A program made the translations under genes and the position numbers. Under the pieces are notes generated by a model. That model searched no databases, had not been told where the DNA came from, and saw only the letters and a list, made by a program, of their open reading frames with translations. From Antrihabitans stalagmiti (GTDB taxonomy: Bacteria > Actinomycetota > Actinomycetes > Mycobacteriales > Mycobacteriaceae), in contig NZ_JAEMNV010000004.1 in the NCBI RefSeq assembly GCF_016482825.1, forward strand, positions 523,655 to 587,654: a DNA stretch of 64,000 bases, given 5' to 3'. Shown here one piece after another: positions 9,991 through 26,137 of the stretch. The stretch's first letter is position 1, and every line of letters begins with the position of its first letter.

Positions 9991-10812
9991 GTTGTCGCGA
10001 TCGACGACCGACGCGTCGACGATCAGGTATCCGTCCGCCTGCCAGATGCGGATACGGAGCGTCTCGCCGGGAAACACAACTCCGGCGAAACGGGCGCGGA
10101 AACCCTTGACGCGCGCGGCGTCGCCGCCGAGCGCCGCGTCCACAACACTCTTGCAGACGATTCCGTACGTGCAGAGGCCATGCAGAATCGGTCGCGGGAA
10201 TCCTGCTGCAGCGGCGAACGCGGGATCGGAATGCAGCGGATTTCGGTCGCCGCACATCCGGTACAGCAGCGCCTGCTGGGGCAGCGTCGTCGTCTTCACC
10301 TCGAGGTCGGGTGCGCGGTCGGGCAATTCTCGCGACTCGGAAGGGCCACGCTCACCGCCGAATCCGCCTTCACCACGGGCGAAGATGGACGAGCGGGACT
10401 GCCACAGCTCGTTGCCGTCCACGTCGACCGTTGTCGATTCCTGAACGATCACCGCAGCCTTGCCCTTGTCCCACACCTCGGCAATGCGCGTTGTCGTCGT
10501 CGCTTTTCCGGATGCAGGCAGCGGCCGGGTGACGGTGACCTCCTGGCTGCCGTGCACGATCTTTGCGAGATCTATTTCGACGCCGGGAAACGACACCCGA
10601 GGTGCTTCGGTTGCATGGAAGGTTGCTGCGACGGTTGCAAACGTGGGAAGCACCTGTGGTGCAACATCTTCCAGGTAGCGCAGCTCGGTGTCTGCCAGCG
10701 GGCTCGCGCCCGCGCCGAGTGCGAGATGGTAGAGCTGCACGTCGGACGGGTCCCAGCTGAACGACGCCGCGGGTAGTTCGGCACCGATTGCGGTACTCGG
10801 ATCGATGGGCAC
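9952..10812 (-). CDS. chsH3: Two-domain MaoC-type enoyl-CoA hydratase (ChsH3/Rv3538-like)
   Basis: The 286-residue protein has a degenerate N-terminal hot-dog half and a C-terminal MaoC half carrying YRMCGDRNPLHSDP (about residues 182-195), the R-specific hydratase signature. The family resembles the hydratase part of peroxisomal multifunctional enzyme 2 and should hydrate a steroid side-chain enoyl-CoA. GTG start. It lies nine bases after kstD on the same strand, an order shared with Rv3537-Rv3538. The gene symbol follows that homology and is less certain than the chemistry. Confidence 0.82.
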   Translation of the reverse strand: MPIDPSTAIGAELPAASFSWDPSDVQLYHLALGAGASPLADTELRYLEDVAPQVLPTFATVAATFHATEAPRVSFPGVEIDLAKIVHGSQEVTVTRPLPASGKATTTTRIAEVWDKGKAAVIVQESTTVDVDGNELWQSRSSIFARGEGGFGGERGPSESRELPDRAPDLEVKTTTLPQQALLYRMCGDRNPLHSDPAFAAAAGFPRPILHGLCTYGIVCKSVVDAALGGDAARVKGFRARFAGVVFPGETLRIRIWQADGYLIVDASVVDRDNSPALSDVVLTLA

Positions 10813-10821
10813 TGATCGTCC

Positions 10822-12525
10822 TCAGTTCGTGATGCGGTCGGCGGTCTGGGACTTCGACTTCGCCCGTTCGGCGATGTCGAGTACGGCGAGATAGCCGAAT
10901 GTCATTGCGGGACCGATGGTTGCTCCGGGGCCGGCGTAGGTGTGTCCCATCACCGGTGCGCTGGTGTTGCCGACCGCGTAGAGACCGTCGATGACGCTGC
11001 CGTCCTCGCGCAGCACTCGAGCAGCGGTGTCGGTGCGCAACCCGCCCTTGGTGCCGAGGTCGCCGGGCACCATCTTGATCGCGTAGTAAGGCGCCTTTTC
11101 CAACGCTCCGAGACTCGGGTTCGGTTTGTTGCGCGGATCGCCGTAGTAGTGGTCGTAGCCGCTGACTCCGCGACCGAAGTCGTCGTCGTGGCCTTTGTGC
11201 GCAAAGCCGTTGAACCGCTCGACCGTTGCAGTCAGAGCGTCTGCAGGCAGACCGACCTTGGTCGCAAGCTCGGCGATGGTCGGCGCCGAGGTGACGATTC
11301 CGGCCTCTACCCATCGTTTCGGAAAACGTTGCTCCGGTTGCAGTCCCGCGAACATATAGCGGTCGCGATAGCGCTGATCGAGGATCATCCACGTCGGGAC
11401 GTTTTCGCCTGGCCCCTCGCCGATGCCGTTTTCGCCGCCGTACATCCGGTGTACTGCTTCGACGTAGGGTGCGGCCTCGTTGAGGAATCGTTGCCCGCGG
11501 TCGTTGACCATGATCGCGCCGGGCAGGTTGCGTTCGGCAAGGCAGAACCACGGCCCGCCGGTGAGCGGGATCGATGGACCCCACCATGCGTCTTCCATCA
11601 GATCTGTTGCAGCACCAAGTTTCTGACCGGCCTGGATGCCGTCGCCGGTGTTCGCTTTCGCGCCGACAGTCCACTCGATGCCGATGGGCTCGCGCTGATA
11701 CTTCTTGCGCATCTCCTCGTTCTGTTCGAAACCGCCGGAGGCGAGGATGACACCGTAGCGAGCTGTGATGAGCTGCGGTTGCCCGTTGATCAACACGTCG
11801 ACGCCGGTGACGACACCGTTCTCGGTGCGGAGATCGGTCATCGGGGTGTCGAGCATGATCGGAACGTTGGCGTCCAACAACCCTTTTCGCATGCCGGCGA
11901 CAAACGCCTGGCCACGACCGAGCAGATGTTTGCCGGTGAGCCGCGCGAGCGTGAGCCGCGCACCGACCCGCATGATACGAAGTTTGCCCCTGTAGTGCCG
12001 CTTGCGGAGGTTGAGCCACTTGTAATCGGCCTGTGTGACAACGACGTTCAGCGGAGCTTTGCCGTAATCGGGCTCGAGATTGGCAAGTTCGGCGCCGAGC
12101 GTCTTGGCGTTGAAAGGTTTGGGCTCCATCGTGCGGCCACCGAGACGACCGCCGGGTGCCTCGGGGTAGTAGTCGGAGTAGCCGGGAACCCAACTGAACC
12201 GCAGCGGGGTGTGTCGCAGCACGAACGAGATGACCTCGGGTCCACGATCGATGTAGGTGTCGATCTTCTCGGGCGGCACGTCTGCGCCGACGATGTGGTG
12301 GAGGTAGGTCCGCGCGGCTTCGAGGTCGTCGTCGACGCCGTCCGCAGCGAGTGCCTCGTTGGTCGGGATCCAGACGCCACCACCGGAGCGGGCTGTCGAG
12401 CCGCCGTAGTGGGGTGCCTTTTCGATGATGACGACACTCAGTCCGCGGTGGGCCGCGGTGAGGGCGGAGGTCATGCCGCCGGCGCCACTGCCGACAACGA
12501 CGATGTCGTATTCGAGCTTGCTCAT
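10822..12525 (-). CDS. kstD: 3-Ketosteroid delta1-dehydrogenase
   Basis: The 567-residue flavoprotein has an FAD-binding VVGSGAGG near residues 10-17 and a C-terminal HTYAGPGATIGPAM motif containing the catalytic Tyr and Gly of KstD. It introduces the C1-C2 double bond into 3-ketosteroids; together with KshA this opens ring B. The ATG at 12525 is preceded one base away by a perfect KstR-type operator, so the transcript is probably leaderless or nearly so. A long upstream in-frame extension crosses that operator and is rejected. Which KstD isoform it is cannot be settled from sequence reading alone. Confidence 0.93.
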   Translation of the reverse strand: MSKLEYDIVVVGSGAGGMTSALTAAHRGLSVVIIEKAPHYGGSTARSGGGVWIPTNEALAADGVDDDLEAARTYLHHIVGADVPPEKIDTYIDRGPEVISFVLRHTPLRFSWVPGYSDYYPEAPGGRLGGRTMEPKPFNAKTLGAELANLEPDYGKAPLNVVVTQADYKWLNLRKRHYRGKLRIMRVGARLTLARLTGKHLLGRGQAFVAGMRKGLLDANVPIMLDTPMTDLRTENGVVTGVDVLINGQPQLITARYGVILASGGFEQNEEMRKKYQREPIGIEWTVGAKANTGDGIQAGQKLGAATDLMEDAWWGPSIPLTGGPWFCLAERNLPGAIMVNDRGQRFLNEAAPYVEAVHRMYGGENGIGEGPGENVPTWMILDQRYRDRYMFAGLQPEQRFPKRWVEAGIVTSAPTIAELATKVGLPADALTATVERFNGFAHKGHDDDFGRGVSGYDHYYGDPRNKPNPSLGALEKAPYYAIKMVPGDLGTKGGLRTDTAARVLREDGSVIDGLYAVGNTSAPVMGHTYAGPGATIGPAMTFGYLAVLDIAERAKSKSQTADRITN

Positions 12526-12526
12526 G

Positions 12527-12540
12527 TAGAACACGTTATA
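12527..12540. promoter_or_regulatory. KstR-type operator upstream of kstD
   Basis: TAGAACACGTTATA matches T-nn-AAC-nn-GTT-nn-A at every fixed position. It lies one base from the kstD ATG and covers a TATAAC -10-like hexamer read on the minus strand. The identical 14-mer occurs upstream of kshA. Confidence 0.88.
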
Positions 12541-12604
12541 GAATGATGGGCCTGCGGGTCCAATCTTTCTGCCAGGAAGTATCGCGGAATTTTGCGAGCC
12601 AAAC

Positions 12605-12618
12605 CGAAACACGTTGCA
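12605..12618. promoter_or_regulatory. Weak KstR-like site upstream of the flavoprotein gene
   Basis: CGAAACACGTTGCA keeps the AAC-nn-GTT core and the terminal A but has C for the first T. It lies 22 bases before the ATG at 12640 and could control the flavoprotein-hsaEGF operon together with the strong site at 12527. Confidence 0.45.
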
Positions 12619-12639
12619 GTTTTGCGAGAGGTGCAATCG

Positions 12640-14241
12640 ATGACCTGGGATCTTTCGGCCGATGTGGTCGTTATCGGCTACGGCGCGGCCGGTACGTCGG
12701 CGGCACTGGAGGCTGTGGCCGGGGGCACGAAGGTCGTTGCGATCGACCGTTTCAACGGCGGCGGTGCGACCGAACTCTCCGGTGGCGTCGTGTACGCGGG
12801 CGGCGGAACGTCGATCCAGCGGGCAGCCGGAGTCGAGGACACACCGGAGGCGATGTTGGCCTACCTGACCCACGAGGTCGGCGACGCTGTGTCCCCGGAG
12901 ACGCTGCGTCGATTCGTCGACGGCAGCCCAGCGATGATCGATTGGCTCAGCGCACACGGTGTCCCGTTCGAAGGGTCGCTGTGCCCGTACAAGACGTCCT
13001 ACCCGAGCAACAAGCACTATCTCTACTACTCGGGAAGCGAAGCGGCAGGTGCCTTCCGTGGCATCGCAAAGCCCGCGCCGCGAGGACACCGCGCGAAAGC
13101 CAAGGGAACGTCGGGCAAGAAGATCTCGGGTCCACTGGCAGCCGCGGCGAAGGTTGCGGGTGTGGACTTCCGGCCGCACACCCGCGCGACGAAGTTGGTC
13201 ACCGACGACGAGGGGCGAGTGATCGGCGTGGAGGCCACGACGATGCGCGACGCACCGGCAAAGGTGCAGACCCTGTTCGCCAGATTGGCGCGGCTCTCGG
13301 CAAAACCTGGCATCTACTACCCGCCACTGCGGCGGGCGTTGGAAGCTCGGATCCTGAAGCTCGAACGCGCGCATGCCAAACCGATTCGTATCGAAGCTCG
13401 GTCCGGTGTGATCGTGAGTGCAGGCGGCTTCATCGCCAACCGCGAACTCGTCAAGGAACACGCACCGCAATACCGTGGCGGCCTGGTTCTCGGAACGACG
13501 GGTGACGACGGCAGCGGTATCGCGCTCGCGCAGAGTGTCGGCGCCGCCACCGATCGGCTCGGCAACGTCTCCGCATGGCGTTTCATCGTTCCGCCGTCAG
13601 CGTTCCTGCGGGCATTGGTCGTCGACAAGGCCGGGTCGCGGGTGATCGACGAATCCCGATACGGCGCCGCAGTCGGTCACGCCCTCATCGCCGACCACGA
13701 GGGCAGGGGCTGGTTGCTCGCCGACGCCGACCTCGTTCGCGAAGCGCGTTCCCAACTCGGCGACCAGTCGACCTGGTTTCAACGATTGCAGGCCGAGGGG
13801 CTCTTCCGGCTCGAAGCCAAGAAAGGCGCCACAGTCGAGGAAGTGGCGCGACGTGCGGGTGTCGACCCCGCGGGTCTGCTTGCAACCGTGACCGAACACA
13901 ACCTCGCCATCGACGCGGGCGAACCCGATCCGGTCGGGAAGCCCGCCGAGTTCACCAAAGCCGTACGGACGCCGCCCTTCTCGTTGTTCGATATCTCTAT
14001 CAAACCGAGCGTGACGAATCCGTGCCCGATGCTGACGCTCGGTGGCGTCGTCGTCGACGAAGCAACGGGAGCCGTCAAGACAGCGGGTGGGCAGGATATT
14101 CCAGGTTTGTATGCGGCGGGCCGGACCGCCGTCGGAATTTGCTCGAACTCCTACGTCAGCGGGTTGTCGATCGCGGACTGCATTTTCTCCGGCAGGCGCG
14201 CTGGTTTGCATGCCGCGCAGCGTGCCCGGGTAGCCAGGTAG
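12640..14241 (+). CDS. KstD-like FAD-binding steroid dehydrogenase, second paralogue
   Basis: The 533-residue protein has an N-terminal VVIGYGAAG FAD motif (residues 10-18) and a C-terminal NSYVSGLSIADCIFSG, which differs from the YAGPGATIGPAM motif of the adjacent kstD. It belongs to the fumarate reductase/KstD flavoprotein family and may oxidise another bond, for example as a 3-ketosteroid delta4-(5alpha)-dehydrogenase (inference). GAGAGG precedes the ATG at 12640. It opens an operon with hsaE, hsaG and hsaF, pointing to a role in ring degradation. Confidence 0.75.
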   Translation: MTWDLSADVVVIGYGAAGTSAALEAVAGGTKVVAIDRFNGGGATELSGGVVYAGGGTSIQRAAGVEDTPEAMLAYLTHEVGDAVSPETLRRFVDGSPAMIDWLSAHGVPFEGSLCPYKTSYPSNKHYLYYSGSEAAGAFRGIAKPAPRGHRAKAKGTSGKKISGPLAAAAKVAGVDFRPHTRATKLVTDDEGRVIGVEATTMRDAPAKVQTLFARLARLSAKPGIYYPPLRRALEARILKLERAHAKPIRIEARSGVIVSAGGFIANRELVKEHAPQYRGGLVLGTTGDDGSGIALAQSVGAATDRLGNVSAWRFIVPPSAFLRALVVDKAGSRVIDESRYGAAVGHALIADHEGRGWLLADADLVREARSQLGDQSTWFQRLQAEGLFRLEAKKGATVEEVARRAGVDPAGLLATVTEHNLAIDAGEPDPVGKPAEFTKAVRTPPFSLFDISIKPSVTNPCPMLTLGGVVVDEATGAVKTAGGQDIPGLYAAGRTAVGICSNSYVSGLSIADCIFSGRRAGLHAAQRARVAR

Positions 14242-14257
14242 GACAGGGAAGGGACCA

Positions 14258-15043
14258 ATGCTCACCACAGAGGAACGCGCCGACATCGCGGGCAGGCTCG
14301 CCGCTGCCGAGCGTGACCGGACGCCGATCGGTCCGCTCACCGCAGCTTTTGCCGACATCGACGTCGTCGACGCCTACGAAATTCAGCTACTCAACATCCG
14401 GAACAGGCTCGCCGCCGGAGCCAGGGTGGTCGGGCACAAGGTCGGGCTGTCGTCGAAGGCGATGCAGCAGATGATGGGCGTCGACGAACCCGATTACGGC
14501 CACCTCCTCGCCGACATGGCGGTGAGCGAAGACGAACCGATACCGGCTGCGCGATACTGCTTTCCGCGCGTCGAGGTCGAGGTCGGGTTCGTACTCGGCG
14601 CCGATCTGCCCGGCGAGGACTGCACCGAAGCCGACGTCCTCGCGGCAACCGAGGCCGTCGCGCCGTCCATCGAATTGATCGACAGTCGCATCACGGATTG
14701 GAAGATCAAGCTCGAGGACACCATCTCCGACAACGCGTCCTCCGCGGGTTTCGTCCTCGGCAAGGAACGAGTAAAGCCCGGCGACATCGACCTGCGCGGG
14801 ATCGATGCGACCCTGCATCGCAACGGCGAACTCATCGCCGAAGGTCGCAGCGACGCGGTTCTCGGTGATCCGGTGATTGCCGTCGCGTGGCTTGCCCGCA
14901 AGGTCGCGAGTTTCGGTGTGCGGTTGAAAGCCGGCGACATCGTCCTGCCCGGGTCGTGCACGCGGGCGATCGACGTTCGGCCAGGTGACAGTTTCCACGC
15001 AGACTTCAGCGGGCTCGGGTCCGTTTCGCTGCAATTCGTATAG
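14258..15043 (+). CDS. hsaE: HsaE, 2-hydroxyhexa-2,4-dienoate hydratase
   Basis: The 261-residue protein belongs to the 2-keto-4-pentenoate hydratase (MhpD/HpaG) family, shown by [18 protein letters not shown] near residue 53 and the acidic metal-site region [10 protein letters not shown]. It hydrates the small dienoate released when HsaD cleaves the opened ring A. AGGGAAGGG precedes the ATG. hsaG follows after eight bases and hsaF after that, the conserved meta-cleavage tail order. Confidence 0.92.
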
Positions 15044-15051
15044 GGGTTCAG

Positions 15052-15954
15052 ATGACTAAAGCGACAGTGGCCATTGTCGGTTCCGGCAACATCAGCACCG
15101 ACCTGTTGTACAAGTTGCAACGCTCCGACGTTCTCGAAGCGCGGTGGATGATCGGTATCGATCCCAACAGCGACGGACTTGCCCGGGCCCGCGGTCTCGG
15201 CCTGGAAACCTCTGCGGGTGGCGTCGATTGGCTGCTTGCACAGCCCGAGTTGCCCGACCTGATCTTCGAAGCCACGTCGGCATACGTGCACAGGGCCGCG
15301 GCGCCAAGGTATGCCGAAGCTGGCATTCGCGCGATCGATCTGACACCCGCTGCGGTCGGGCCTGCCGTCGTGCCGTCGGTGAACCTCGGTGAGCATCTCG
15401 ACGCGCCGAACGTCAACATGATCACGTGTGGGGGACAGGCGACCATCCCCATGGTTGCTGCGGTCTCGCGTGTCGTCGAAGTCTCCTATGCCGAGATCGT
15501 CGCATCGGTGGCCTCGGTCTCCGCGGGTCCGGGGACGCGCGCGAACATCGACGAGTTCACCAAGACGACCAGCCGTGGCGTCGAAACCATCGGTGGCGCG
15601 AAGCGGGGCAAGGCGATCATCGTGCTCAATCCGGCCGATCCGCCGATGATCATGCGCGACACCATCTTCTGTGCCATCCCCGAGGATGCCGACACAGCCG
15701 CGATCACCGAATCGGTACACCGGATGGTGGCAGCCGTGCAGGACTACGTACCCGGCTATCGGTTGCTCAACGAACCGCAGTTCGATCCGCCGTCGGTGGT
15801 GTCCGGCGGTCTTGCGAAGGTGTCCATCTTCGTCGAAGTGGAAGGTGCCGGGGACTATCTGCCGCCCTACGCGGGCAATCTCGACATCATGACCGCGGCC
15901 GCCGCCAAGGTTGGCGCCGAAGCCGCGAAGCAAATACTCGACGTGCGTGTGTGA
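15052..15954 (+). CDS. hsaG: HsaG, acylating acetaldehyde/propionaldehyde dehydrogenase
   Basis: The 300-residue protein has an NAD-binding VGSGNIST (residues 9-16) and the catalytic Cys126 in ITCGGQAT. It oxidises the aldehyde made by HsaF to its CoA ester using NAD and CoA, normally by channelling inside an HsaF-HsaG complex. In the steroid route the aldehyde is propanal and the product propionyl-CoA. Confidence 0.94.
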
Positions 15955-15965
15955 GGAACAGACTT

Positions 15966-17024
15966 ATGACGAACAAGACGAATACGCCTCGCCCCTTCTC
16001 CGACGCGATCGACATCCGAGTCACCGACACCTCACTGCGTGACGGGTCCCACCACAAGCGGCACCAATTCACGGCGGAGGACGTCGAGAACATCGTTGCG
16101 GCGCTCGACGGTGCCGGCGTACCTGTCATCGAGGTGACCCACGGGGATGGCCTCGGTGGCTCGTCCTTCAACTACGGATTCTCGAAAACACCTGAACAGG
16201 AATTGATTTCGATCGCGGCAAAGACTGCCAAGAATGCGAAGATCGCCTTCCTGATGCTGCCTGGTGTCGGTGTCAAAGAGGACATCGTGATCGCTCAGGA
16301 CAACGGTGCATCGATCTGCAGAATCGCGACGCACTGCACCGAAGCCGACGTGTCGATCCAGCACTTCGGTCTCGCCCGCGAACGCGGCCTGGAGACCGTC
16401 GGCTTCTTGATGATGTCGCACACGCAACCGCCGGAGTTCCTGGCCAAGCAGGCGCGGATCATGGCGGACGCGGGATGTCAGTGCGTGTACGTCGTCGATT
16501 CGGCGGGAGCCCTGGTTCTGGAGCAGGTGTCGGATCGAGTCGCCGCCATCGTCGACGAACTGCACGGTGATGCTCAGGTCGGGTTCCACGGTCACGAGAA
16601 CCTCGACCTCGCTGTCGCCAACTCGGTGTATGCGATTCGCGCGGGTGCCTCGCAGATCGACGGCAGTACAAGGAGATTCGGCGCCGGTGCCGGCAATACG
16701 CCGGTCGAGGCTTTCGTCGGTGTCTGCGACAAGTTGGGCGTGCAGACGGGCATCGACTTCTTCAAGATCGCCGACGCCGCCGAAGACGTCGTCCGGCCGG
16801 TCATGCCGCAAGAATGTCTGCTCGATCGGCAGGCGCTGATGATGGGCTACGCGGGTGTGTACTCCAGCTTCCTCAAACATGCTGAGCGGCAAGCGGAACG
16901 CTACGGGGTATCGTCCGCCGAGATGCTCGTGCGAGCAGGTGCCCGAAAACTGGTCGGCGGCCAGGAGGACCAATTGATCGACATAGCAATCGAACTGCAG
17001 AAGGAAGCGGCGGCGAAGGGTTAG
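15966..17024 (+). CDS. hsaF: HsaF, 4-hydroxy-2-oxohexanoate aldolase
   Basis: The 352-residue protein belongs to the DmpG/HMG-CoA lyase-like metal aldolase family. [14 protein letters not shown] (about residues 22-35) carries catalytic and metal ligands, and [11 protein letters not shown] carries the metal-binding histidines. It cleaves 4-hydroxy-2-oxohexanoate to pyruvate and propanal, passed to HsaG. The ATG at 15966 lies 11 bases after the hsaG stop. Its stop overlaps by four bases the stop of a convergent minus-strand gene. Confidence 0.93.
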
Positions 17025-17512
17025 TGCCGTCGCTCGGTCGAGCGGTCCTGAATTGCTGCCTCGACTTCGTCGAGAGCGGTACGGATGAGCGTCCCGTACG
17101 CGTCGTCGGGAAGCGTGTCCAAACAGCCTCTGGCGGCGACGATCTCATCGTGTGCGACGTCGAAAGAACCGAGTAGACGGTAGTTTTCGGCCAGGTTGAG
17201 ATGCAGCGACGGGTAGAACGCCCGGACGTCCAGGTCGGCGTGGTGTTGCTGCGCACGGTCGTTGGTCAGGCTGTCCGCCGCGTCGAGTGCTCTGATGTCC
17301 CAGACAAGCGCCTGAGCGGGGTCGGTGTACAGATCGGCCAGGTAGTGGGCGAGCGTGCGCCGGTGCAGTGGATCGCCCGCAGGCCCGATCGTCGCCCAGG
17401 CTTCTAGCAGTGCCTCGCGTGCACCATCCTGATCTCCGTCGTGTCCCAATGCGACCGCCTGCGTTATGACGGCCATCGTAGCGTTCGCGGTGACAGTGTC
17501 CGGTGTGGTCAT
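17021..17512 (-). CDS. TPR-like helical protein, function unknown
   Basis: The 163-residue, alpha-helical protein contains tetratricopeptide-like stretches such as [21 protein letters not shown] and counting-type alternation throughout. No enzyme motif is visible. The ATG overlaps the stop of the upstream MerR-clamp gene (ATGA), so the two are co-translated. The acidic, Ala/Leu-rich composition fits a protein-protein interaction module. It may bind the MerR-clamp protein (inference). Confidence 0.7.
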
Positions 17513-18582
17513 TGCACTCCTTCGGTGAAGTTGTCGGGCATACGTGGCATCACGAGAGTGGTCAGATCGCCGTCGTCGCCCGAGCGGACGACGACGGGTT
17601 GGTCTCCTCGTGCGAGATCGAGCATGAGGTCCGGCCCAACGGTGGTCGCAATGGCCGGACGCAGCGTCGCGGGATCGAAGGAAACGTCGAAGCGAGGGCC
17701 CGTCACCGTCGCAGGTAAGTGTCTTGGTCCCTCGTGTGTAGCCGACACCATCGCGATGTCGCCGTCGAAAGTGCATCTCAGCGATGCGCCTCCCACCTCG
17801 TCGATCGCTGCGAGCATCGCCTCACGGGCGACGACAACCCGGGTCACTACAGGCGCGAGGCTCCCGATCATCGTCCGATAGTCGGGAAACGGTTCCCTGA
17901 TCGTCATGCAGCGGAATTGGGCACCGGCGCCGGCGACAAGCAAACCGCTGGACGTCGGCGTCAACGCCACGATGTCTAGCTGCCGCAGCGCAGGTGCCAG
18001 TGCCGCAAGGTCGCTGGACACGACGACTGTCGACCAATCCGAGCGTGCATCGTGGTGGAGCGCAAGACTTCGCGTGATCAGTCGGTACCTATCGGTCGCG
18101 GTGAGGGTCAGTGCGTTCGAACGAGTTTCGAGGAACATGCCGGTGAGTACTGCATGGTCGTTGCTGCATGCGGCCGCTGTACCTACCAGGTCGATGGCAC
18201 CTGCTAGCGCTGCTCCGGACAGAGTCACGGTGTTGAGAGATTGCAGTGACGCCTTGACTGAGGCGGCGACCTTCGCGGCGTTGTGCGCCCTCCGCTCTAG
18301 TTCACCCACGTGTTCGTCGAGTAGTCGGGCGGCTGCGTCGTCGTCGCTCGACAGAATCACGGCGACGGCATCGAGCGGAATATCGATCGCCCGCAATTGT
18401 CGAATCAGCACCGCTCGTTGGCATTGGGCCTCTTTGTAGTAGCGGTAGCCGGTGGCGTCGTCCACCGCCGCAGGAACAAGGAGACCGCAATCGCCGTAGA
18501 ACCTGATTGCGCTCGGGGTTAGCCCGCTGGCTCGAGCCAGGACGCCGATCGTGATCAGCGGGTCGTCGCGCGAATTGCTCAC
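17509..18582 (-). CDS. MerR-type regulator fused to a DNA sliding-clamp (DnaN)-like domain
   Basis: The protein has 357 residues. Residues about 9-75 are a MerR winged helix-turn-helix (TIGVLARASGLTPSAIRFYGDCGLL) and a dimer helix runs to about 115. From about 118 to the end the chain reads like domains II and III of the DNA polymerase III beta clamp: LTGMFLE (147-153), TATDRYRL (161-168), PFPDYR (231-236) and LVMPR (343-347). These line up in order with GMLFE, VATDGHRL, RFPDYR and VMPMR in E. coli DnaN. Domain I is absent, its place taken by the MerR head. GTG start. It is flanked by dhaKL upstream and a TPR-like gene downstream. Confidence 0.88.
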   Translation of the reverse strand: MSNSRDDPLITIGVLARASGLTPSAIRFYGDCGLLVPAAVDDATGYRYYKEAQCQRAVLIRQLRAIDIPLDAVAVILSSDDDAAARLLDEHVGELERRAHNAAKVAASVKASLQSLNTVTLSGAALAGAIDLVGTAAACSNDHAVLTGMFLETRSNALTLTATDRYRLITRSLALHHDARSDWSTVVVSSDLAALAPALRQLDIVALTPTSSGLLVAGAGAQFRCMTIREPFPDYRTMIGSLAPVVTRVVVAREAMLAAIDEVGGASLRCTFDGDIAMVSATHEGPRHLPATVTGPRFDVSFDPATLRPAIATTVGPDLMLDLARGDQPVVVRSGDDGDLTTLVMPRMPDNFTEGVQ

Positions 18583-18599
18583 GGGCCAATCATGAAGGT

Positions 18600-20336
18600 T
18601 CAGGTAAGTCGAAGGTCAAGTCGATCGACCGCTGCAGCGGCTTCGGCGAAGAACCACGAGATGACCAGCGCACCAGGATCGATAACCCCGCGCGCGGCGG
18701 CACCGACGTAGCTTGCCCTGCCACGTTTCGCGACGAGGTCGGTGGTTGATCGGGCCCCGCGCCCTGCTGCGTCGGCAGCAGCGGACAGTCCTGCTGCGAG
18801 ATCGCTCCCGTCTGCGACCGCATGCTCCAGCGCGTCGACTGCTGGTGCGATGGCATCGATCATGGTCTTGTCACCCGTTCTTGCATTGCCTAGCTCGGCG
18901 ATGGTGTCGAGGCCCTGTCGGGCGGCAGCAGCAATGGTGGCTACCGTCAGCCCTTTTTCGGCTGCTCGATAGAACTCACGAAACCAGATTCCGAACAGCG
19001 CACCGGACGTACCGCCTGCATGGCCGAGGTAGGCGTCGGAGATGGTTCGGAACGCCGTTGGCAGCGTGAACGTGTCCCGAACCCCGGAGATATCGACGTG
19101 ATCGAGTGCGGCGACCATGTTGGTGCCGAAGTCACCATCGCCGGCCTGTCGATCGAGGTCGGTGAGCTCGGGCTCGGCAGCGACAACCTTCTCGACGAAG
19201 TTGCCGAGCCAGCTGCCGACGGCTGCGCGGTCGAGGCAGTCGGGTTCGGTGCTCGCCTCCGAGTCACCGCGGTCGGCGGCGATCGGCGCACGAAACACGA
19301 CGTCGGAGGATGCGGGAACCTGCGCGGCCTCGGTTGACGGCGCATTGGGCCACCCCGGCGCCGCAGTCGGCGCGTCCCACAGTTGCACGATCTCCTCGTC
19401 GCAGCGTACGAGGGTTACGGATGCGCCTTCCATGTTCAACGCGGTGACGAAGCTGCCGACTATGGTCCGCCGCACGACGATCGACCTGGTGGCGAGGTAG
19501 TCGACGAGTTCGGCGAAAAGCAGCTGTAGCTGCAGCGGATGGGTGCCGCCGAGGCCGTTGACGATCACGAACACTTCTTCGTCCGCGTCAAGGCTCAGCG
19601 ACGCGATCACAGGATCGGCCAGACGACGAACGAGTTCGTTCGCCGGCAGTGCGGCGATGCGATCGACACCGCGTTCGCCATGGATGCCGATGCCTATTTC
19701 GATCTCGTGGTCGGCGAGATCGAACGACGGCGACGAGGCACCTGGCAGGGTGCACGCGCGCAATGCAACGGCCATCGTGCGAGCGTTGTCGGCGACGCGC
19801 TGGCCAAGCATGGTTACCGTGGCCAGGTCGTCACCGCGCTCTGCAGCTGCGCCGCATATCTTTTCGACCGCGATGACGGCTGCGGTCCCGCGTCGTCCAG
19901 GTCCCTCGTCGCTTTCGGTGGCGACGTCGTCGGCCACGAGTACCTGGCTGACGGTGACCCCCGATTCGGCCGCAAGGTTGCTGCCGATCCGGAAGTTGAG
20001 AACGTCGCCCGTGTAGTTCTTGACGATATGAACGACCCCGGCTCCTGCGTCGACGGCGCGAGTAGCTGCGGCGATCTGCAGTGCGTTCGGCGATGTGAAG
20101 ACCAATCCCGGGCAGGCGCCGGTCAGCATGCCCGCGCCGACAAACCCTGCATGTAGGGGCTCGTGGCCCGAACCGCCGCCAGAAAGCAGCGCGACCTGCC
20201 CAGGCGGCAACGGCTTTCCTCGGGTCAGGTAGCCCGGTTCGGAGTGCCAGACGAGGTCGTCGGCCGAGGTGAGTGCCCCGCGTAGAGCATCTGCGACGAA
20301 GGTCTTGGCCGAGTTGAGAAACTGTGGCTGCGGCAT
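18600..20336 (-). CDS. ATP-dependent dihydroxyacetone kinase, DhaK-DhaL fusion
   Basis: The 578-residue protein has DhaK in its N-terminal half, with SGGGSGHEP and AGFVG, and the GIHGE His region near residue 220. A short Ala-rich linker leads to DhaL (about 375-578) with DLDRQAGDGDFGTNM, the Mg-ATP aspartate cluster. It should phosphorylate dihydroxyacetone or a related short ketose or aldose directly with ATP; no PTS partner DhaM is present. ATG 20336 is preferred to GTG 20339. The MerR-clamp gene begins 17 bases after its stop, so regulator and kinase share a transcript. Confidence 0.88.
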   Translation of the reverse strand: MPQPQFLNSAKTFVADALRGALTSADDLVWHSEPGYLTRGKPLPPGQVALLSGGGSGHEPLHAGFVGAGMLTGACPGLVFTSPNALQIAAATRAVDAGAGVVHIVKNYTGDVLNFRIGSNLAAESGVTVSQVLVADDVATESDEGPGRRGTAAVIAVEKICGAAAERGDDLATVTMLGQRVADNARTMAVALRACTLPGASSPSFDLADHEIEIGIGIHGERGVDRIAALPANELVRRLADPVIASLSLDADEEVFVIVNGLGGTHPLQLQLLFAELVDYLATRSIVVRRTIVGSFVTALNMEGASVTLVRCDEEIVQLWDAPTAAPGWPNAPSTEAAQVPASSDVVFRAPIAADRGDSEASTEPDCLDRAAVGSWLGNFVEKVVAAEPELTDLDRQAGDGDFGTNMVAALDHVDISGVRDTFTLPTAFRTISDAYLGHAGGTSGALFGIWFREFYRAAEKGLTVATIAAAARQGLDTIAELGNARTGDKTMIDAIAPAVDALEHAVADGSDLAAGLSAAADAAGRGARSTTDLVAKRGRASYVGAAARGVIDPGALVISWFFAEAAAAVDRLDLRLT

Positions 20337-21806: not shown

Positions 21807-22976
21807 CTACACGCCCGCGGGATGTTCGGCGACAGTCGGCTGATTTTCCGCTGCAGCTTCTGCTTCCTTCTTTCGGCGCAGATTTTCCTGCACCTCCGCC
21901 TCCCACGCTTCGTTCGCCTTCGTGGTGTCGACCTCGAACTCGAATCGCTGCGTCATCTTCTCGGTGACGTCGGCGATATCGACGTAGAACTGGTCGTACC
22001 AGCGTCGCAGCTGATAAACGGGTCCGTCGTCCTCGCAGAGCAGCGGGTTGTCGATCTTCGACTTGTTCTTCCAGATCTCGACATCTTGAAGAAAGCCGAC
22101 GCTGATGCCTTCGGTGAACTTCTCGGCGAGCCTTTGTGACGTCTTGTCGTCGATGCCCGCGGGCTTCTTCACACTGACACCCCACTGCAGGACGAAAGAA
22201 TCCTGCGTCACGGGGTAGTGGCAGTTGATCAGCACCGATTCCACTTCGTAGCCGCCGTAGATGTTGATCAACGGATTGACCATGTACGACGGGCCGAAGT
22301 AGGAGGCTTCCGACTTGAGCAGGGTGTCGCCACCGTACTGCGACGCCATCCCGATGTCGGGCCTGCCTTTGGTATTCAGGTACTGCGTAGCGACCTGGCC
22401 TTCGAAGACGTTTTTGAAGTACGTCGGGAACGCGTAGTGAATGTAGAAGAAGTGCGCCATGTCGACGACGTTGTCGATGATCTCCCTGCAGTTGGCACCC
22501 TCGATGAGCATCGAGTTCCAGGTCCAGTCGGTCCACTCGTCGCTGTACGCGCCTTCGATGCGTGGGATCGTGACGTCGTCGGGTGGGGGATTGCCTTCGT
22601 GGTCGTGCCAGACGAACAACTGTCCGTTCTGTTCGAGAGTCGTCCACGCGCGCGTGCGAGCCAGCGGCGGTACTCGGCGGGCATAGGGAATCGACGTACA
22701 TTTTCCGCTCGCGCCCCAGCGCCAGTCGTGGAACGGGCAGGCGATGTCGTCGCCTTTCACTTCACCCTGGGTGAGATCGCCGCCCATGTGACGGCAGTAC
22801 GCGTCGAGGACTCGCAGTACGCCCGCGCTGTCGGCCCAAATCACCAACTTGGTTCCGAACGCTTGGATCGCGTGTGGCTTGCCGTCCCTGAAGGGTTCCG
22901 TGAGTCCGAGGCAGTGCCAGCCTCGTGCGTACCGGGTCGGCGTAGTGCCGACATCGATCTCCCGAATCTTCGCCAT
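21807..22976 (-). CDS. kshA: KshA, oxygenase of 3-ketosteroid 9alpha-hydroxylase
   Basis: The 389-residue Rieske oxygenase has its [2Fe-2S] ligands at Cys61, His63, Cys80 and His83 (CRH and CPFH), and mononuclear iron ligands include His175 and His180 in DMAHFFYIH. It hydroxylates C9 of ADD/AD-type steroids; with KstD action this opens ring B. The reductase KshB is not in the window. The ATG at 22976 is preceded by GGGAGCGG. A perfect KstR-type operator lies 30 bases upstream, and hsaA is divergent. Confidence 0.95.
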   Translation of the reverse strand: MAKIREIDVGTTPTRYARGWHCLGLTEPFRDGKPHAIQAFGTKLVIWADSAGVLRVLDAYCRHMGGDLTQGEVKGDDIACPFHDWRWGASGKCTSIPYARRVPPLARTRAWTTLEQNGQLFVWHDHEGNPPPDDVTIPRIEGAYSDEWTDWTWNSMLIEGANCREIIDNVVDMAHFFYIHYAFPTYFKNVFEGQVATQYLNTKGRPDIGMASQYGGDTLLKSEASYFGPSYMVNPLINIYGGYEVESVLINCHYPVTQDSFVLQWGVSVKKPAGIDDKTSQRLAEKFTEGISVGFLQDVEIWKNKSKIDNPLLCEDDGPVYQLRRWYDQFYVDIADVTEKMTQRFEFEVDTTKANEAWEAEVQENLRRKKEAEAAAENQPTVAEHPAGV

Positions 22977-23005
22977 AGTGTCCTGTCCGCTCCCTTGGCT
23001 TGTAC

Positions 23006-23019
23006 TAGAACACGTTATA
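23006..23019. promoter_or_regulatory. KstR-type operator, kshA side
   Basis: TAGAACACGTTATA is identical to the 14-mer upstream of kstD and matches every fixed base of the KstR consensus. It lies between kshA and hsaA, nearer kshA. Confidence 0.9.
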
Positions 23020-23110
23020 GAACTTGTGTCAGAAACGCTAGATTTTCGCCGGTTCCGCCACGCCTGCTGTGTTGTCTGACCTGCTAGCAAGGCCGCATCT
23101 CGACATAAAC

Positions 23111-23124
23111 GGTAACGTGTTCTA
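23111..23124. promoter_or_regulatory. KstR-type operator, hsaA side
   Basis: GGTAACGTGTTCTA matches the KstR consensus except for G at the first position. It lies 45 bases before the hsaA start, so each divergent operon has its own site, 92 bp apart. Confidence 0.8.
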
Positions 23125-23168
23125 GTCTCAGGAGCAGTGAAACACGGCACCGAAAAAGGAGCGTCGGA

Positions 23169-24344
23169 GTGAGTGACCACGACAACCATGAGGTCGTAGC
23201 AAGGGTCGAAGCGCTGCTACCGACATTGCGTGAACGCGCGCAGGACGCCGAAGATCTACGGCGCATTCCGGACGAATCGATCAAGCAGCTACAGGAGACC
23301 GGGTTCTTCCGCCTGCTACAGCCTTCCCAGTGGGGCGGCTACGAGGCCGACCCGACCCTGTTCTACGACGTGGTTCGGCGGATCGCGAGTGCCTGCGGGT
23401 CGACGGGATGGGTGTCCTCGATCATCGGTGTGCACAACTGGCATCTCGCGCTGTTCCCCCAAGAGGCGCAGGAAGACGTGTGGGGCAAGGACTCCGACGT
23501 CCGCATCTCCTCGTCCTACGCGCCGATGGGTGCTGGGGAGGTCGTCGACGGCGGCTACAAGGTCAACGGCGCCTGGGCTTGGTCGTCGGGTTGTGATCAT
23601 GCGGATTGGGCTGTGCTCGGCGGTCCGGTGATCAAGGACGGTCGCCCGGTCGACTTCGTCAGCTTCCTGATTCCGCGCGAGGACTACCGCATCGACGACG
23701 TCTGGAATGTTGTCGGTCTACGCGGCACCGGCAGCAACACCGTCATCGTCAAAGATGCCTTCGTTCCTCGTCATCACACCCTCAGCTTCCGCGCGATGAG
23801 CAACCTCACGGCGCCAGGCCTCGAACGCAACACCGCTCCGGTCTACAAGATGCCATGGGGCACAATCCATCCCACGACGATTTCCGCTCCGATCGTCGGT
23901 ATGGCATACGGCGCCTACGACGCTCACGTCGAGCATCAGGGCAAACGGGTCCGCGCCGCATTCGTAGGCGAGAAGGCCAAGGACGACCCGTTCGCCAAGG
24001 TCCGCATCGCCGAGGCATCCAGCGACATCGACGCCGCGTGGCGCCAGTTGTCGGGCAACGTCGCCGACGAGTACGCACTGCTGACCGCGGGCAAAGAGGT
24101 GCCGTTCGAAATGCGTCTGCGTGCTCGACGTGATCAGGTGCGCGCAACGGGCCGGGCAATCTCGTCCATCGACAAGCTCTTCGAAAGTTCGGGAGCAACC
24201 GCTCTGTCGAACGGCACACCACTGCAACGGTTCTGGCGTGACGCCCATGCCGGACGTGTTCACGCGGCAAACGACCCGGAACGCGCATACATGATATTCG
24301 GTGCCGGCGAGTTCGGTCTGCCGATCTCGGACACGATGGTCTAG
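23169..24344 (+). CDS. hsaA: HsaA, oxygenase of 3-HSA 4-hydroxylase
   Basis: The 391-residue flavin-dependent monooxygenase has the acyl-CoA dehydrogenase fold (group D). It hydroxylates 3-HSA to the catechol 3,4-DHSA with reduced flavin from HsaB. Visible marks include GWVSSIIGVHNWHLALFP near residue 80 and the FAGAGEFGLP-like C-terminus. GTG start with AAGGAG eight bases upstream. It is the first gene of hsaA-hsaD-hsaC-hsaB. Confidence 0.94.
   Translation: MSDHDNHEVVARVEALLPTLRERAQDAEDLRRIPDESIKQLQETGFFRLLQPSQWGGYEADPTLFYDVVRRIASACGSTGWVSSIIGVHNWHLALFPQEAQEDVWGKDSDVRISSSYAPMGAGEVVDGGYKVNGAWAWSSGCDHADWAVLGGPVIKDGRPVDFVSFLIPREDYRIDDVWNVVGLRGTGSNTVIVKDAFVPRHHTLSFRAMSNLTAPGLERNTAPVYKMPWGTIHPTTISAPIVGMAYGAYDAHVEHQGKRVRAAFVGEKAKDDPFAKVRIAEASSDIDAAWRQLSGNVADEYALLTAGKEVPFEMRLRARRDQVRATGRAISSIDKLFESSGATALSNGTPLQRFWRDAHAGRVHAANDPERAYMIFGAGEFGLPISDTMV

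Positions 24345-26137
<1,793 letters not shown>

Follow-up and report, generated by a model that had tools for sequence, protein, structure and literature searches.

A MerR-type regulator with a DnaN-like sliding-clamp tail in Antrihabitans stalagmiti and other Actinomycetes: a candidate sensor of clamp-pocket ligands

Several drug sensors of the MerR family, among them BmrR, TipAL, BrlR and EcmrR, combine a dimer helix with a C-terminal ligand domain, act on long-spacer promoters and control either their own genes or exporter genes. Their sensors are GyrI-like or TipAS-type domains. The fusion protein of Antrihabitans stalagmiti described here matches these regulators in its head and recalls their general layout; unlike theirs, its putative sensor is a fragment of a sliding clamp. 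A sensor domain related to the target class of the drug itself, as we propose for the fusion, is also known from BlaR1/MecR1, which, unlike the fusion, are membrane protease receptors for beta-lactams and are unrelated proteins. Sliding clamps are themselves drug targets: according to one study, the griselimycins and mycoplanecins are actinomycete drugs directed at the clamp pocket, and an additional DnaN gene within the respective biosynthetic clusters (GriR and MypR) is interpreted as giving the producers self-resistance (PMC10817943). The fusion resembles GriR and MypR as an extra clamp-derived actinomycete protein with a proposed tie to clamp-binding compounds; unlike the fusion, these are DnaN genes and not transcription factors. 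The term 'MerR' was not found in the main text of that study (PMC10817943), and no description of a MerR-clamp fusion was among the papers listed in searches of the open-licence literature.

Domain composition, fold and distribution of the fusion

The window, i.e., the whole stretch of 64,000 nucleotides of A. stalagmiti DNA that was analysed, carries the fusion gene with the following parts:

17509 to 18582, minus strand: MerR-clamp fusion gene, 357 aa, GTG start (open reading frame, profile matches, AlphaFold, Foldseek)
18346 to 18552, minus strand: MerR winged-helix head, residues 11-79 (Pfam MerR_1, E 9.3e-14)
18238 to 18342, minus strand: long helix, residues 81-115, the usual antiparallel MerR dimer helix, presumably forming a dimer (AlphaFold)
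17863 to 18228, minus strand: DnaN-like domain II, approximately residues 119-240 (Pfam DNA_pol3_beta_2, AlphaFold, Foldseek)
17545 to 17850, minus strand: DnaN-like domain III, approximately residues 245-346 (TIGR00663 up to residue 346, hhalign, AlphaFold)
18079 to 18099, minus strand: pocket motif ATDRYRL, residues 162-168, equivalent to E. coli 171-177, subsite I
17875 to 17889, minus strand: pocket motif FPDYR, residues 232-236, equivalent to E. coli 241-245
17545 to 17556, minus strand: pocket motif LVMP, residues 343-346, equivalent to E. coli 360-363

The head exceeds the Pfam cut-offs of both MerR_1 and MerR (E 2.7e-10), and residues 121-234 of the tail exceed that of DNA_pol3_beta_2 (E 1.2e-10); the TIGR00663 dnaN model aligns with residues 117-346 over model positions 125-364 at an E-value of 5.7e-13, below its curated cut-off. 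AlphaFold predicted the helix 81-115 followed by two clamp-type domains (mean pLDDT 94.5, pTM 0.78). When this model was compared with the PDB using Foldseek, 570 matches were obtained at E up to 0.001, and the best 50 of the 570 were all DnaN clamps, the top one with E 2e-19 and prob 1.00 over 243 columns at 2.3 A; the matches listed include clamps bound to natural products and clamps bound to clamp-binding peptides. Moreover, hhalign of 66 fusion tails against 22 host DnaNs and that of E. coli gave a probability of 99.9 and an E-value of 2.1e-33. The clamp resemblance of the tail is not due to chance.

A sequence-only reading of the window had proposed a plain MerR head standing in place of clamp domain I and followed by domains II and III, and had staked this on a clamp fold of the tail. 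Pfam, TIGR00663 and the predicted structure bear out the head and the replacement, AlphaFold and Foldseek returned the clamp fold, and the landmarks that had led to the proposal are present (GMFLE at 148-152, ATDRYRL, PFPDYR at 231-236 and LVMPR at 343-347). The fusion is thus confirmed: a MerR head with its dimer helix precedes two domains, II and III, of a DnaN clamp of the actinomycete type; the three clamp domains per chain of a DnaN were not found, domain I being missing. The genome has its own dnaN elsewhere (contig C4), away from the fusion.

The fusion is not unique to the window and occurs in well over 150 sampled genomes of Actinomycetes. In a phylum-wide sample, full-length fusions were found in 11 of 396 genomes at a score of at least 332 bits, all within one class, and the next matches, at no more than 152 bits, mostly covered the tail only, as plain DnaN does; full-length fusions could be told apart from plain DnaN because the bit scores separate them. 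At E-values up to 1e-50, matches were obtained in 121/397 genomes of the order, 32/394 of the class and 93/180 of the family f15, samples that overlap and in which some matches are partial. Thirty-nine plasmid records also carried a match, and in nine of them the match spans 80% or more of the query. Among the inspected plasmid copies, five are annotated only as 'MerR family transcriptional regulator', as had been anticipated for possible relatives, and two have no annotation. Exact peptide patterns for related loci were found nowhere in the genome contigs and were possibly too narrow. Another odd actinomycete MerR sensor was seen at one locus (L016) and in plasmid matches H23-H27, where MerR heads carry a PP2C phosphatase-like domain.

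Tail statistics are based on 66 of 68 loci, leaving out L098 and the truncated L136. By their C-terminal motif the tails were split into 52 of type A and 14 of type B (20 members if B is defined by the operator), a division with which the tree agrees roughly, and group means are approximate. In a quick tail tree (SH-aLRT support only) the host DnaNs form one clade (99), and the fusion tails branch apart from them, A and B tails together splitting from DnaN at 82. A single origin of A and B tails is likely from this tree, not proven; the genomes compared are related samples and not independent events. The MerR-clamp fusion is real, coherent and widespread in Actinomycetes.

Pocket, ring interface and DNA channel of the clamp tail

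The pocket list and the ring-interface positions were taken from a review (PMC11139829). The reference consisted of 22 DnaNs of fusion-bearing genomes, usable sequence being obtained from 22 of 30 DnaN loci, and positions at which at least 90% of these shared one residue class were compared, 10 in subsite I versus 107 others. Mean same-class retention at the subsite-I positions was 0.93 in the A tails and 0.99 in the B tails, versus 0.46 and 0.49, respectively, at the other host-conserved positions (Mann-Whitney p 1.7e-5 for A, 1.8e-4 for B), and none of 20,000 random draws reached the subsite-I retention of the A tails. Subsite-I positions 242 and 246 were excluded from the statistic since their host conservation is too low; Pro242 is retained in 52/52 A and 11/14 B tails, and position 246 is variable. 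The fusion in the window, which has an A-type tail, retains L146, T163, R165, Y166, R167, L168, P233, M238, L343, M345 and P346, host DnaNs having mostly Leu at the equivalent of M238; at E. coli position 152 it has H143, where hosts have Leu. The retention of the pocket may partly reflect folding, since structurally important residues also evolve slowly. The invariant Arg at E. coli position 174 (R165 in the window) had looked specific to the family when compared with DnaNs mostly of other classes; as Arg is found there in 22/22 DnaNs of fusion-bearing genomes, it is inherited, and it was rejected as a family signature.

Positions 198 and 205 of the E. coli clamp, which we take to represent the basic DNA channel, are K or R in 22/22 hosts; they are S and P in the window fusion and are lost in both A and B tails. 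The ring positions 272, 273 and 304 are L, V and E in 22/22 host DnaNs and G, A and R in the window fusion. Neither type of tail has kept positions 273 and 304, and position 272, Leu in hosts, is lost in A tails and is Val in 8/14 B tails, so that all three ring residues are mostly missing from A tails. The fusion shares with DnaN (TIGR00663) the predicted fold of clamp domains II and III as well as subsite I of the pocket; unlike DnaN, it lacks domain I and the basic channel, has mostly lost the ring interface and carries a DNA-binding head. Judged by these residues, the tail is a pocket and not a ring.

Two ideas that had been raised for the tail fare differently on these data. Use of the fold for binding a peptide or another ligand is supported by the retained pocket residues. 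The proposal that a dimer encloses DNA in an incomplete ring of clamp domains could build on the two clamp domains per chain in the AlphaFold model, but the residues of the DNA channel and most of those of the ring interface are lost; we regard it, together with the suggestion that the fusion regulates dhaKL (see below), as scarcely credible. It is also very improbable that the tail is a structural or oligomerization module only, with the MerR part working without a pocket ligand. MerR proteins with varied tails do exist, for example with a MerR head before a PP2C-like domain, yet here the pocket has been selectively retained against losses elsewhere in the tail.

Subsite II separates the two types of tail. 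It is largely lost in A tails, where the residue class of N320, Y323 and R365 is kept in fractions of 0.12, 0.12 and 0.38 (D, T and M in the window fusion), and it is kept in B tails, where N320, Y/F323 and R365 are conserved by class in 14/14.

Operator, partner gene and regulon

Two further features adjoin the fusion gene:

18589 to 18619, minus strand: MerR-type operator-promoter, with -35 TTGACC (18614-18619), a 19-bp spacer with dyad and -10 CATGAT (18589-18594)
17021 to 17512, minus strand: partner gene for a 163-aa TPR-like protein, overlapping the fusion stop codon (ATGA)

In the window the operator dyad lies inside the 19-bp spacer of the promoter, as is typical of MerR regulators, and the start codon of the fusion follows 6 nt past the -10 element. 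The same operator (TTGAC(C/T)(C/T)TC, 19-bp dyad spacer, -10) is found just upstream of the fusion in 65 of 68 loci, and 60 of these have an in-frame start codon 6-8 nt past the -10 element, a short distance that suggests a leaderless fusion transcript. The three loci without the standard arrangement have a variant (L116), the operator ahead of partner and fusion (L138) or none (L147).

The window operator reaches into the 3' end of the gene before the fusion, called dhaL in the sequence-only reading, which had suggested looking for binding sites upstream of dhaKL. Regulation of dhaKL is not supported: at the end of dhaL stands the sole operator of the window with a score above 15, and it is directed towards the fusion instead of dhaKL, and a dhaKL group is absent among the 45 recurring neighbour groups listed. 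In the whole A. stalagmiti genome the operator occurs once (up to 3 mismatches). When 20 A-type genomes were scanned with the A consensus (up to 3 mismatches, reversed pattern as control), 17 sites were obtained in 14 genomes and none with the reversed pattern, six genomes being without a site; by position, 12 sites lie at the fusion, three at the TPR partner (G667, G596, G659) and two without a fitting gene. As to the wider neighbourhood, the regions around 10800-17000 and 22000-25300 of the window resemble by eye a steroid-degradation cluster (flavin dehydrogenase, hydratase, acetaldehyde dehydrogenase, aldolase, Rieske oxygenase and HsaA/HsaD-like genes), within which the MerR-clamp/TPR pair stands as an interruption together with dhaKL and a gene resembling those of resuscitation-promoting factors.

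Homologs of the partner gene adjoin the fusion in 35 of 68 loci. In 31 they lie within approximately 100 nt downstream; in L117 the partner lies downstream, split over two frames, and in L124 it is 1.6 kb away. In L138 it precedes the fusion in a reversed operon under the fusion-type operator, and in L098 partner and fusion form a single chain of 533 aa. The other 33 loci have no nearby partner, L096 retaining a 39-aa remnant; what look by eye like remnants are also present in L126 and L134. The family matches TPR_12 in 28 of 34 members at E up to 0.1 (best 1.3e-7), the window partner matching TPR_4 only (E 0.19), and the partner part is all-helical in the AlphaFold model of the L098 chain. 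An all-against-all comparison of the flanks led us to reject other conserved neighbours, since the 45 groups listed consisted mainly of shadow frames of fusion and partner and of sets common to related genomes. A second type of partner, which measures 210-231 aa and has an additional conserved segment at its C-terminus, was observed beside a distinct group of A-type fusions (L139, L142, L143, L146, L148, L149, L104, L109, L130, L019, L020).

Searched alone, the partner was found in 91 of 298 genomes of the order. Twenty places away from a fusion were picked by eye, for the most part among the highest-ranking matches, and ten of them have the operator just upstream, two with weaker scores (17.6 and 29.1). 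The operator was present at the unlinked partner in 10/10 fusion-bearing genomes (G667, G691, G620, G461, G601, G051, G672, G587, G532, G659) versus 0/10 fusion-lacking ones, the latter comprising eight without a fusion match and two (G023, G040) without a full-length match (Fisher's p, by hand, 2/184756 = 1.1e-5; six of the ten come from one genus and the rest from families f14 and f16). The TPR relatives without operator in fusion-lacking genomes are those of L163, L165, L170, L174, L176-L180 and L182.

Could the TPR protein itself be the ligand of the clamp tail, as a co-regulator or anti-activator closing a feedback loop? It is the most constant neighbour of the fusion, occurs with it as one chain in L098 and stands under the same operator where the two are unlinked. 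However, nearly half of the fusion loci (33/68) have no nearby TPR gene, TPR relatives exist without the operator in fusion-lacking genomes, and no clear clamp-binding motif was seen by eye in the partner. A docking of the partner on the clamp tail was sought in the L098 chain model and rejected, its pTM of 0.54 giving no reliable arrangement. We therefore hold this role of the partner to be improbable.

The regulon is wider in the genus g45, presumably Micromonospora. A scan of 20 genomes with the B operator (up to 2 mismatches, reversed pattern as control) yielded 41 sites, versus one for the reversed pattern; 19 were assigned to fusion promoters, 10 to TPR genes, six to MFS genes, three to the dnaA-dnaN region and two to YunG genes, and one had no gene. 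In L200 the MFS gene starts approximately 100 nt from the site. Among the 68 fusion loci, L140 and L144 have an ATGA-coupled MFS gene directly after the fusion in the place of the TPR gene. The MFS proteins of L205, L189 and L200 and the coupled ones of L140 and L144 all pass Pfam MFS_1 (5/5), resemble the H+ antiporters of TIGR00900 and, below curated cut-offs, drug exporters such as Tet(V), Mef or Tap; the remaining three MFS genes of g45 were recognised by eye from their near-identical starts. The two YunG genes under a B-type operator (L211 and L263, in G683 and G469) both pass Pfam YunG (PF24585).

Furthermore, a weight-matrix scan of the 1.1 kb upstream of dnaN, for which 12 of 46 upstream regions were not located and so not scanned, revealed the operator in 19 of 20 g45 genomes with scores of 24-41.6. 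It points at dnaN and lies in the oriC region between dnaA and dnaN, 690-776 nt ahead of the dnaN start. By comparison, 102 background windows scored no higher than 8.2, and 14 genomes from other groups no higher than 0.0. In 90 further f15 genomes, scanned on the dnaN strand only, it was present in 7/7 of g45, 0/44 other fusion-bearing and 0/39 fusion-lacking genomes, which makes 26 of 27 g45 genomes overall. As the operator at dnaN is confined to this genus, it is a recruitment in one lineage. The dnaN of A. stalagmiti (L001, L252) has no operator site, nor has an exporter gene, the genome having a single operator. In an alignment of the 20 g45 genomes the 37 operator columns are 78% identical and the 60 columns just before 18%; the mean window of the dnaA-dnaN region is 86% identical, and conservation equals or exceeds that of the operator in 66% of windows, as ends of coding sequences and origin elements fall in this stretch too. 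Since the operator lies so far upstream, dnaN may not be the transcript that it drives. GTG or ATG codons stand at leaderless distance after the operator in the aligned regions (L188, L202, L212 and others); a small leaderless reading frame following it was rejected, as the frames differ between the three loci read. Second DnaN-like genes, possibly second clamps, were observed in G1016 and G1035 as N-terminal DnaN matches of 97 bits (G1016:C1:3580504, L283; G1035:C27:61790, L282) in frames of 429 and 460 aa, the TDxxRL pocket motif not being found in them by pattern. They were rejected as operator targets, no operator lying within 5-6 kb.

These targets bear on the closest rival to drug sensing, namely clamp-binding peptides under replication stress. 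The pocket would then sense an internal signal, free clamp-binding motifs of polymerases and repair proteins, reporting replication stress or clamp demand and adjusting dnaN in g45. According to the review, the LF portion of clamp-binding motifs is bound by subsite I (PMC11139829), and this subsite is retained in A and B tails; B-type tails keep subsite II too (14/14 by class), and the operator at dnaN and oriC in g45 would fit. On the other hand, such a signal does not readily account for exporters being part of the regulon, subsite II is largely lost in A tails, and the cassette is patchy and found on plasmids, unlike core replication control. On this evidence we judge an internal signal unlikely, though it deserves consideration.

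Proposed mechanism and significance

On balance we consider it probable that the fusion is a MerR activator sensing clamp-pocket ligands through captured DnaN domains II and III. The captured copy of the clamp would no longer form a ring or slide on DNA and would have kept the hydrophobic peptide and drug pocket, subsite I. A presumed dimer would occupy the over-long 19-bp spacer of its own promoter, and a clamp-pocket ligand would switch it to an activating, DNA-distorting state in the usual MerR way. The activated regulator would then raise its own expression and that of the small TPR partner and, in some lineages, also that of an MFS exporter, YunG and dnaN. The likeliest signal would be a small molecule or peptide occupying the clamp pocket.

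An exporter and a drug target under the same operator point to DnaN-targeting antibiotics, and a ligand of the griselimycin/mycoplanecin kind is a plausible, still tentative candidate. R365 is reported to form a hydrogen bond with mycoplanecin A (PMC10817943); since subsite II including this residue is largely lost in A tails, the A-type ligand may differ from a mycoplanecin-like one. In its full extent, the proposal that actinomycetes captured the clamp pocket as a sensor for antibiotics directed at the clamp or for peptides that bind it, and that they respond with increased expression of exporters, of a TPR effector and, in a single genus, of dnaN, is an attractive possibility that falls somewhat short of probable.

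The fusion adds a new type of sensor to the MerR family; it does not constitute a new kind of clamp. If the proposed mechanism is true, a transcription factor would have been made from a part of the replisome, linking a clamp-like sensor to the clamp gene, and a drug would be sensed by a decoy of its own target. It would also mean that actinomycetes have long and widely been exposed to pressure from compounds that target the clamp. The fusion would then offer a ready-made reporter with which natural products that bind the clamp could be found, and its targets would constitute a resistance-type regulon to watch as DnaN inhibitors are developed.
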